NCBI GenBank assembly: GCA_014379385.1
Contig: JACMLW010000152.1
Location: 1 to 64,000, forward strand
Source: Phycisphaerales bacterium
GTDB lineage: Bacteria > Planctomycetota > Phycisphaerae > Phycisphaerales > UBA1924
DNA length: 64,000 bases
Direction of reading: 5' to 3'
Made by a program: the position numbers and the translations under genes. The number at the start of each line of letters is the position of its first letter. The stretch's first letter is position 1. Below the pieces are notes generated by a model, which did not search any database, was not told where the DNA came from, and was given only the letters and a program-made list of their open reading frames with translations. This document shows positions 7,604-10,351 of this stretch, piece after piece.

Positions 7604-8803
7604 ATGCGGATCGCTCTCGCACACGATTGGCTCTGCGGGTATCGCGGCGGCGAGGCCGTGCTGGAACGGCTTGCCGCGCTGGTGCGACGCCAACACGAGG
7701 CCGCCGGGCTGTACGTGATGGTCGATGACGGCGAGCGACTCGGTGCCGCAATCGACACGATCCCGCATGTTCGTTCGCGACTTGATCCTCTTCCTATGGC
7801 CGCGGGGCGACTGCGGCGATGGTACTTCCCTTTGTATGCGTGGGCGGTCGAAGGACTCTCGAACCAACTCGAGCGTGCGCACGCCATTCGGCCGATCGAC
7901 CTCGTGATCTCGACCAGCTCGGCCGCGATCAAGGGCCTTCGCCCGCCCACGGGCGTGCCGCATCTCTGTTATTGCCATTCACCCGCTCGATACGCGTGGT
8001 CGCAGCGGCGCGAGTATTCATCGGGGCGGCTCGGGGGGTTGCGCGGAGCCGGCCTCGCGATGTTTGCACGCCGGTTTCAGAAATGGGACGTGGCAACCGC
8101 GGCGAATGTCACCCGCTTCGTTGCCAACTCGGGGCATACCGCGGCGGAGATCAAGCGGTGCTACGGGCGTGACGCAGAGATCGTGCATCCGCCGGTGCGC
8201 TGCGAATACTTCACGCCGGATGTGTCTGTGGCGCGCGAGGACTTCTGGCTCGTGGTCTCCGCGCTCGAGCCCTACAAGCGAGTTGAACTGGCCATCGAGG
8301 CCGCGCGCCGGGCGGGCAAGCGCCTGGTTGTGGCAGGATCAGGCTCGCAGCGCCGGTACCTGCAATCGCTGTCGCGAGGCTCGCGACCGGGGAGCGTGGT
8401 GTTCGTGGACCGCGTCCCCGATGACGAACTCAGACAGTTCTACCGGAAGGCGGCGGTGCTTGTCTTCCCGCAAGTGGAGGACTTTGGGATCATCGCGGTG
8501 GAGGCGATGGCGTGCGGCTTGCCCGTGGTGGCCCGGCGCGCGGGCGGCGCTCTGAGCACGATCGTGGACGGCGTCACCGGCGCCCTCTTTGACCGGGATG
8601 ATCCCGCGGCGGTCGTCGAAGCGATGTCGCGCCTCCCGAGCAGCGCGGCCGGCGCGTGCCGCGTGCAGGCCGCGCGATTCAGCGAGCGTGTGTTCGATGA
8701 ACGAATGAGCCTAATTATTTCGCAGGCCCTCGGTGGCTCGCTAGCGATCCAGCCCGCGGGGCTCCCGGTCAGCAGACCCTCGCGGCGAGCACCAGCCCAA
8801 TAA
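7604..8803 (+). CDS. GT4-family glycosyltransferase
   Basis: A retaining GT-B glycosyltransferase of 399 residues, probably transferring a hexose from a nucleotide sugar to a surface glycan or lipid carrier. N-terminal acceptor domain: MRIALAHDWLCGYRGGEAVLE and HLCYCHSPARYAWSQRREY. The C-terminal donor domain has LVVSALEPYKRVELAIEAAR, RLVVAGSGSQRRYLQSL and the EX7E element in EDFGIIAVEAMACGLPVVA. Sequence resembles WbaZ-type mannosyltransferases. Start chosen at the conserved N terminus and the TACGCT spacing. The 3' end overlaps the convergent flavin reductase gene by 35 bp. Confidence 0.88.
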   Translation: MRIALAHDWLCGYRGGEAVLERLAALVRRQHEAAGLYVMVDDGERLGAAIDTIPHVRSRLDPLPMAAGRLRRWYFPLYAWAVEGLSNQLERAHAIRPIDLVISTSSAAIKGLRPPTGVPHLCYCHSPARYAWSQRREYSSGRLGGLRGAGLAMFARRFQKWDVATAANVTRFVANSGHTAAEIKRCYGRDAEIVHPPVRCEYFTPDVSVAREDFWLVVSALEPYKRVELAIEAARRAGKRLVVAGSGSQRRYLQSLSRGSRPGSVVFVDRVPDDELRQFYRKAAVLVFPQVEDFGIIAVEAMACGLPVVARRAGGALSTIVDGVTGALFDRDDPAAVVEAMSRLPSSAAGACRVQAARFSERVFDERMSLIISQALGGSLAIQPAGLPVSRPSRRAPAQ

Positions 8804-9245
8804 AGAGCTCGTAGTCCGCCTCGAGATCGAAGTGCCGCACGACCTCGCAGTCGATGACCGCCACGGCCTTCTTGAGCAGCGGGGAGCGCGAGGCGAGCGT
8901 GAAGGTCTCGATGGCGTCAAAGACTTCGCTGCTCCCCTCGCTCTGCGAAAACCGGCGGGTGAGTTGTTTGTCGGACTTGCCGAGGATGCTCAGCCCAAAG
9001 TGGTGGCTATCGCGGATGATCGGGTCGATCTTGTGGCCCTTGCGCATCGCGACGCCGATGTGCAAGGGCTCGTCGGAGCACTGCATCACGCGATCAACCA
9101 CGGCCCCGGCGCGATCGCGTTCAAAGCACGAAGAGAGGACGCACGTAAGCGTGGGCAAAAACGCAAGCGTGCTGCGCACCTGCTCGTTCGCCGCGGGCGC
9201 AACCGCAGCGGTCCCGGAGCCGCGTTCTCGAATGTCGCTGATCAT
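8769..9245 (-). CDS. flavin reductase-like FMN-binding protein
   Basis: A 158-residue protein of the flavin reductase-like (split beta-barrel) family, which binds FMN and often reduces it with NAD(P)H for a partner enzyme. Visible features are LTCVLSSCFERDRAGAVV, EPLHIGVAMRKGHKIDPII, HHFGLSILGKSDKQLTRRF (the substrate-loop region) and a C-terminal strand-rich stretch ending ELFIGLVLAARV. ATG 9245 follows GAAGGAC at good spacing. It is transcribed divergently from mraZ; no partner monooxygenase is adjacent. Confidence 0.8.
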   Translation of the reverse strand: MISDIRERGSGTAAVAPAANEQVRSTLAFLPTLTCVLSSCFERDRAGAVVDRVMQCSDEPLHIGVAMRKGHKIDPIIRDSHHFGLSILGKSDKQLTRRFSQSEGSSEVFDAIETFTLASRSPLLKKAVAVIDCEVVRHFDLEADYELFIGLVLAARVC

Positions 9246-9350
9246 TGGGCGTCCTTCAAAGGCGGCGACTCGCAACCAGCCCTCGTTCAGAGTCTAAACG
9301 ATTCGCGAGCAAACGAAAAACGAACAAAAATATTTCGTGAGAAACCGCCA

Positions 9351-9410
9351 GTGGGTTGGAATCGTGGGGCAAAGTGGGGCATAATCCCACAACTGCCCAC
9401 GGAGACCCAC
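9351..9410. promoter_or_regulatory. MraZ operator: six GTGGG/CCCAC boxes
   Basis: Three GTGGG boxes (9351, 9364, 9374) face three CCCAC boxes (9386, 9396, 9406). The three CCCAC boxes repeat with an exact 10-nt period, as do the inner two GTGGG boxes. MraZ is known to bind TGGG-containing direct repeats with a 10-bp helical period just upstream of its own gene. The last box ends one base before the mraZ start, so binding should block initiation. Confidence 0.8.
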
Positions 9411-9411
9411 G

Positions 9412-9864
9412 TTGCTCTTCACCGGTCAGTCCGAACACAGCATCGACCAAAAGTTGCGGCTGGCGATCCCGGCAAAGTACCGCAACCAATGGGACTCAAC
9501 ACGCGACGGCGCGGCTTGGTTCTCGCTTCCCTGGCCCACCGGCCATGTGAGGCTCTTCACCGAAGGTGAGTTTCATCGGCTTGCCGAGCAGCGCAAGCCG
9601 ACCCTCACCCCGAGCAAGGTCAGAGCCGAGGTCGATTCGCTGATTTTCGGATATGCCGAACGCCTGGAGATGGACTCGAACGGACGGATCACGCTGCCGC
9701 GAAAGCACATCGACCTGACCAGGCTCGGGACGGACGTGATGGTGGTTGGTGTCTCGAACCGGCTGGAAGTGCATGACCGGGAGAAGTGGGAGACGGAGCA
9801 GGATCAGAACTTCCCCAAGCTGCTGGGCCTGATCGAGCAGCTCGAGAAGCTGGAAGAACGGTGA
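9412..9864 (+). CDS. mraZ: MraZ transcriptional regulator
   Basis: MraZ is an AbrB-like ring-forming DNA-binding repressor, normally the first gene of the division and cell-wall (dcw) cluster. The 150-residue product has both half-repeats: SEHSIDQKLRLAIPAKYRN in the first and ERLEMDSNGRITLPRKHIDL in the second. The start is TTG at 9412, with GGAGA seven nt upstream. Unusually, rsmH, fts and mur genes do not follow: the next annotated gene is on the other strand and a terminator lies 355 nt downstream. The box array immediately upstream suggests intact autoregulation of a solitary gene. Confidence 0.92.
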   Translation: MLFTGQSEHSIDQKLRLAIPAKYRNQWDSTRDGAAWFSLPWPTGHVRLFTEGEFHRLAEQRKPTLTPSKVRAEVDSLIFGYAERLEMDSNGRITLPRKHIDLTRLGTDVMVVGVSNRLEVHDREKWETEQDQNFPKLLGLIEQLEKLEER

Positions 9865-10218
9865 ACACCACGGTGTCTGGGAGCCCTGGCGCCAAACGTT
9901 TGAGGGTCGAGAGTTTGATGGGAGCAAGTGAAACCCGCCGTGGTCGGAAACGACCGAAGCCGGGATTTGCAGGTTGAAAACAGGGCCCGAGAAGGAACGT
10001 AAACGAACGGACTCGGAGCTCTTGCCACGCTGGTGGCGCCGCCGGAACCGCATGGAAGCGGAGCCGGCCTCGGTTTGTGCGACCGGACTGCCAGCGAGCT
10101 AGAGCGGTTCCTGATCGAGCTTGAACATGCGCCCGGCCGCGTCGCAACGTCCGGGCGCCTTGATCGAAATCCCACCAGGCGACGGGGGTCTCCCACCACC
10201 CACCCAACCCCGTCGCCC
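9861..10218 (+). other. mraZ transcript tail with two tiny coupled ORFs
   Basis: These 350 nt lie between mraZ and its terminator. A GTG frame (9861-9977, 38 codons) overlaps the mraZ stop as GTGA, and a TTG frame (9974-10102, 42 codons) overlaps the next stop as TTGA. A third frame then reads TASELERFLIELEHAPG (from about 10090), so the tail could be one small gene with a frameshift. No family is recognised and rsmH is not present in any frame. Whether it is translated is unknown. Confidence 0.35.
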
Positions 10219-10271
10219 ACGCCGCCTGCCCGAGCGCTGAACAAGCGTCGGGGCGGGCGGCGTTCTTTTTT
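10219..10271 (+). terminator. Rho-independent terminator of the mraZ unit
   Basis: A long G+C-rich hairpin starts ACGCCGCC, has a TGAACAA loop and returns as GGCGGCGT, followed by TTC and six T residues. It is the strongest intrinsic terminator in the window and closes the mraZ transcript. Confidence 0.8.
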
Positions 10272-10351
10272 GGGAAGTGACAAAGGAACAAAGGCTCTGA
10301 CGGCGTGTCGAGCGGGAGCGTACTGGTGAAGGTTGGCTTGGCCGGGATGGA

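Follow-up and report, generated by a model that had tools for sequence, protein, structure and literature searches.

How is mraZ regulated once it no longer heads a dcw cluster, and what can boxes that face the wrong way contribute? The MraZ regulator is conserved across many bacteria, and in the accessible parts of the literature its sites are direct repeats. Boxes flipped in place put to the test the way in which a ring made of identical subunits recognises DNA: one MraZ subunit may accept a box in either orientation, or rings facing opposite ways may pack on one array. The question is raised by the window, the 64,000-nucleotide stretch of a Phycisphaerales contig that was analysed as a whole, in which GTGGG and CCCAC pentamers crowd the region upstream of a solitary mraZ.

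The initial annotation had placed six pentamers there, and all six were found at the claimed sites (GTGGG at 9351, 9364 and 9374; CCCAC at 9386, 9396 and 9406), with exact 10-nt steps from 9364 to 9374 and along 9386-9396-9406. The last box was said to touch the TTG start; the two are adjacent without contact, the box ending at 9410 and TTG beginning at 9412 with one G between. When each box is taken as 7 bp, the direct slots at 9364 and 9374 and the flipped slots at 9384, 9394 and 9404 all lie in register, and the 12-nt step between the apparent arms results from the flip alone. Positions 9364-9410 thus form one continuous five-slot array of 7-bp boxes with a 10-bp period, the last three boxes being flipped (Table 1). 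The slot at 9354 is degenerate in the window, as it is in relatives, where the -35 element occupies the same slot; the slot ahead of the first strong box reads GTGTTGCA in relatives. The six boxes make up the densest 60 bp of the window, the runner-up being a separate cluster of four (10171-10220). Among 200 copies of the window simulated by a first-order Markov model, none held more than four boxes in any 60 bp, so that 0/200 reached six, and the longest same-strand run at 10 bp was two, compared with three in the real window.

Table 1. Coordinates of the array, its promoter and the neighbouring features in the window.
Feature	Position	Strand	Remarks
Flavin reductase-like gene (PF01613)	8769..9251	-	Divergent from mraZ; start approximate
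Off-register sixth box, GTGGG	9351..9355	+	Adjoins -35; next box 13 nt on
Predicted sigma70 mraZ promoter	9356..9385	+	-35 TTGGAA 9356-9361, 18-bp spacer, -10 CATAAT 9380-9385
Slot 1, direct MraZ-type box GTGGGGC	9364..9370	+	Direct there in 104/115 family loci
Slot 2, direct MraZ-type box GTGGGGC	9374..9380	+	Promoter spacer; direct in 101/115 family loci
Slot 3, flipped box ATCCCAC	9384..9390	-	Overlaps -10 end and discriminator; CCCA in 74/120 loci
Slot 4, flipped box TGCCCAC	9394..9400	-	CCCA in 9/120 loci, 7 genera
GGAGA, likely mraZ Shine-Dalgarno	9401..9405	+	Putative, from sequence
Slot 5, flipped box GACCCAC	9404..9410	-	Between Shine-Dalgarno and start; unconserved, 1/120 (window only)
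mraZ, TTG start, 150 aa, two PF02381 stretches	9412..9864	+	Profile match; single copy found in genome
Conserved structured RNA	10147..10275	+	CCACC-rich hairpin loop; terminator hairpin follows

The identity of the gene is clear. Its product matches PF02381 at 68.3 bits (curated cut-off 23) in two stretches, and its best PDB sequence matches are solved MraZ chains. Members of the MraZ family carry a DxxxR motif in both halves; D12/R16 and D88/R92 are invariant in 18 aligned MraZ sequences. A structure model predicted from the single sequence, with no alignment, had a pLDDT of 39. The gene was described as solitary, with no dcw genes after it, and indeed rsmH has no match on its 120.5-kb contig; the rsmH and division genes that would mark mraZ as the head of a dcw cluster are not behind it. 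The same separation was seen in relatives: mraZ was found in 41/41 genomes and rsmH in 40/41, the two lying on separate contigs in 38 of the 40 genomes that hold both. They share a contig in G013 and G039, yet are distant there (about 63 kb and 1.8 Mb). The genome of the window carries two rsmH-like genes (L068 and L069, on contigs C14 and C203), a case of either contamination or paralogy; no MraZ array was seen by eye upstream of either.

Inspection of positions 9200-9450 gave a single promoter-like site on either strand (mean in shuffles 0.0), the predicted mraZ promoter on the plus strand, so the boxes surround this promoter. Those at 9364 and 9374 fall in the spacer, that at 9386 lies directly past the -10 element, and those at 9396 and 9406 are in the leader. 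Both the -35 and the -10 are conserved among relatives. In leaders of the family an ATG is frequently seen by eye just past the flipped box (for example in L005, L116 and L119); it is possibly a leaderless upstream ORF or a piece of a degenerate second box.

Conservation was assessed in 142 mraZ upstream regions, of which 126 belong to the family of the window (63 genera) and the other 16 to further families within the order. The 126 loci were drawn from the 153 of 163 family genomes that retain mraZ. The anchor template consisted of the -35, the two direct boxes and the -10; it ends at offset 28, ahead of the flipped box, so flipped boxes are not selected for by the anchoring. Promoter plus array exceeded the 99% level set by shuffling upstream DNA in 120/126 family loci and 14/16 loci of other families. 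The array is thus conserved upstream of mraZ in relatives, and the lack of such conservation, named at the outset as a possible refutation, was not observed. The six family loci below the threshold were kept out of the position counts; five further loci, which on visual inspection seemed shifted out of register by 10 bp, are inside the 120-locus counts and outside the 115-locus slot counts. The genus-weighted profile reads GTGTTGCAtt-GTGGGGCAAA-GTGGGG-nATAAT-CCCAC. The two direct boxes are near-universal in family loci, and CCCA stands at offset 29, past the -10, in 74/120 loci and 36/61 genera. At any other offset from -30 to 74 it occurs in at most 12 loci, a number reached at -30 within 2 genera. 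At least 4 of the 16 other-family loci also carry CCCA at offset 29 (L031, L059, L060 and L063). A flipped-like box at 29 and a direct box at 27 are both absent from 24/120 family loci. What is conserved is therefore two direct boxes and one flipped box past the -10, and the arrangement of three boxes facing three does not hold as the family design: the second flipped box is found in 7 genera, the third in the window only, and the box at 9351 is off register.

The rarer flipped boxes obey the same register. Leaving offset 29 aside, CCCA near the core reaches the most genera at -21, -11 and 39 (6, 7 and 7), all of them multiples of 10 bp from 29; a flipped box is present in 9 loci at offset 39 (10 bp on), in 9 at -11 and in 6 at -21 (40 and 50 bp upstream). 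When the flanks of each genus were rotated, a null with a per-offset mean below one genus, offset 39 was expected in 0.81 genera on average and none of 5000 draws reached the observed 7; the three offsets jointly held 20 genus-positions against 2.7 in the null (maximum 11 in 5000 draws). With the box taken as the 7-nt repeat and 3-nt spacer described for Burkholderia, direct boxes begin at 7+10n, and the flipped boxes occupy identical 7-bp slots. GTGG/GTGT boxes at 10 bp are thus present upstream of mraZ as in described MraZ sites, but the boxes are not all direct as in those sites, since flipped CCCA stands at the main slot and at three further slots. That direct and flipped boxes exclude each other at one slot is trivial, because the two overlap. 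The idea that flipped boxes serve to spare the -10 found no support, matches to TATAAT averaging 3.85 with a flipped box and 3.25 with a direct box in the slot (p 0.12). On a tree of 79 MraZ proteins, which is poorly resolved (39/76 inner branches drawn open), the flipped box changed 17 times and the second flipped box 6 times; for the latter, L140, below the anchor threshold, was scored as a carrier, and L086 was excluded from the tree and from the covariance-model locus search.

We consider it probable, at roughly 0.68, that the array is the operator by which MraZ represses its own gene, embedded in the promoter and with the flipped boxes included. The array is real and conserved, and among MraZ operators it would be a variant set apart by its flipped boxes; it is their position that argues for the flipped slots as MraZ sites. 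We infer that MraZ binds the array and that it would bind the flipped boxes too, each in the 7-bp slot that a direct box would fill. The 7-bp boxes, at their period of 10 bp, would run from the -35/-10 spacer over the edge of the -10 and the start site, and on through the leader as far as the start codon. With promoter and leader so covered, bound MraZ rings would exclude RNA polymerase, and the predicted effect of MraZ on its own promoter is repression. A flipped box might be read through the two similar half-domains of each MraZ subunit, or through a second ring facing the opposite way.

The main rival concerns the first flipped box. Here the direct boxes alone would be MraZ sites, the CCCA past the -10 would be a C-rich discriminator that renders open complexes unstable, as in control of the growth-rate or ppGpp type, and the other CCCA would be chance. 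This is rather unlikely in our judgement, even though the first flipped box sits exactly between the -10 and the expected start site and the flipped boxes lack the A-rich triplet found before GTG in direct boxes (offsets 34-36 are not TTT). A discriminator leaves unexplained the CCCA at the other three offsets (39, -11 and -21), where the excess over the rotation null was seen, and CCCA past the -10 occurred in 0/5 consensus promoters of relatives, a small sample. We likewise regard as unlikely the arrangement first drawn, in which two MraZ rings occupy two separate arms that face each other across the -10. In the window the direct and flipped boxes do flank a dyad inside the -10, but family-wide the two sides differ, with two direct boxes and usually one flipped; flipped boxes are also found upstream of the direct ones, and a single 10-bp register needs no second arm.

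A far less probable alternative takes the inverted part as a divergent operator of the flavin reductase gene, which the initial annotation had proposed as a second target of MraZ. A divergent flavin reductase-like gene is a conserved neighbour (33/46 family loci, and 5/16 loci of other families), and in the raw counts neighbour and flipped box are associated (Fisher p 0.0014). Control of the neighbour by MraZ found no support: no promoter-like site was detected on the minus strand in 9200-9450, the association was lost in the tree-based test, which gave just 4 supported independent pairs and no significance, and the flipped box also occurs in loci where no flavin reductase neighbour was detected (L004, L017, L020 and L071-L073). 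Lastly, a chance cluster in G+C-rich DNA can be dismissed despite the commonness of GTGGG (185 in the window) and a genome-wide count of GTGGGN5GTGGG not above control (24 matches vs 33, uninformative alone), for the simulated windows and the position-exact conservation over 61 genera refute it for slots 1-3; it is possible for the box at 9351 and for slot 5.

If the array is the operator of mraZ, as we favour, MraZ seems to have few other targets. Searching 100 family genomes for a promoter pattern that includes two direct boxes yielded 42 matches, 39 of them just upstream of mraZ; two of the remaining three lie elsewhere (G091 and G023) and one is in G129, in which no mraZ was found. The reversed control also gave 3 matches, the same as the count away from mraZ. 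The pattern matched 41/100 genomes and missed 59, including that of the window with its 18-bp spacer; it is thus specific rather than sensitive, and variant targets elsewhere may have escaped it. The array-bearing promoter is essentially confined to mraZ, which fits the earlier suggestion that MraZ here mainly regulates itself.

The unit ends, in the non-coding stretch behind mraZ, in a conserved structured RNA. Its CCACCACC is unpaired and is followed by a hairpin of 7 bp whose loop contains ACCACC, a terminator hairpin and a T-rich tail. Among 17 sequences 92.6% of the pair cells pair, and 10/17 pairs are changed on both sides. The covariation score was reached by 0/500 shuffles and collapsed in slid controls; sequence guided the alignment, from which the structure was then taken. 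A covariance model gave 12 matches in 11/41 genomes, of which 10 sit 195-411 nt behind the mraZ match, the remaining two being weak and elsewhere in the genomes. At 57 bits or more the RNA was detected in 18/61 loci, all from the family of the window (18/45), 17 of the 18 being already in the model. Rfam gave no match at gathering scores, and at E up to 5 it gave two weak matches far below their gathering scores; conserved and outside the Rfam families, the RNA appears to be new. Speculatively, it could be a small RNA of the 3'-end type whose synthesis MraZ controls.

Since no dcw gene lies behind mraZ, the products of the unit would be MraZ and this RNA. FtsZ (PF00091) was found in 0/31 genomes (that of the window and 30 relatives), though mraZ and rsmH are retained, whereas the search detected PF00091 in 13/14 control genomes; a loss of FtsZ would fit Planctomycetota, as far as the accessible part of PMC12283558 goes. 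With no FtsZ and no division gene behind a retained mraZ, the clade shows what MraZ does once its classical targets are gone. A broader proposal, which we put forward tentatively and think doubtful, is that in this FtsZ-less clade MraZ reads its 7-bp boxes either way on one 10-bp register placed over the promoter and that the circuit makes just two products, MraZ and an undescribed RNA from the 3' end of the transcript, a former regulator of the division operon now heading a small RNA-producing unit.

Compared with known MraZ operators, the array is close in its units and different in its layout. The 15-mer GTGGGGCAAAGTGGG of the window recurs letter for letter ahead of E. coli mraZ, as expected of an MraZ-type array, and the 10-bp period is shared. 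The E. coli operator differs in having three direct boxes with no CCCA after them, and there rsmH follows mraZ; its boxes lie downstream of the -10 according to the accessible part of PMC7761207, whereas those of the window are within the promoter. Repression by MraZ is described for its own operon in E. coli and for the remaining cluster genes in Mycoplasma (PMC8475190, in its accessible part). The same 15-mer matches the Mollicutes consensus (AAAGTGKN3)3, given in the accessible part of PMC5282649, which also describes binding of MraZ as an octamer and tolerance of a 1-nt change in spacing. The AAAGTG core and the 10-nt unit are shared with this site, relatives of the window showing AAAGTGTGG units; the Mollicutes site, as described there, consists of direct repeats and has dcw genes behind. 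PmraBc of Burkholderia cenocepacia has in common 7-nt repeats, 3-nt spacers and an overlap with the start site; by the same portion of PMC7761207 it is downstream of the -10, while the boxes of the window are inside the promoter and some are flipped. No flipped MraZ boxes were recognised in the literature covered, in which Fisunov 2016 is represented by the papers that cite it. In the same phylum outside the order, a loose pattern applied within 300 bp upstream gave 2 to 5 GTGG/GTGT boxes at 10 bp in 23/25 loci (L184-L208), some of which runs (L200, L204) may be chance. By eye these differ from the window in being mostly direct runs near the start codon, and a TTGACA-like promoter stands ahead of several. 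Four loci of a distant lineage of this phylum (L190, L198, L199 and L205) show, again by eye, a single CCCA just ahead of two direct boxes; flipped boxes thus perhaps extend beyond the order, and they may be older than it.
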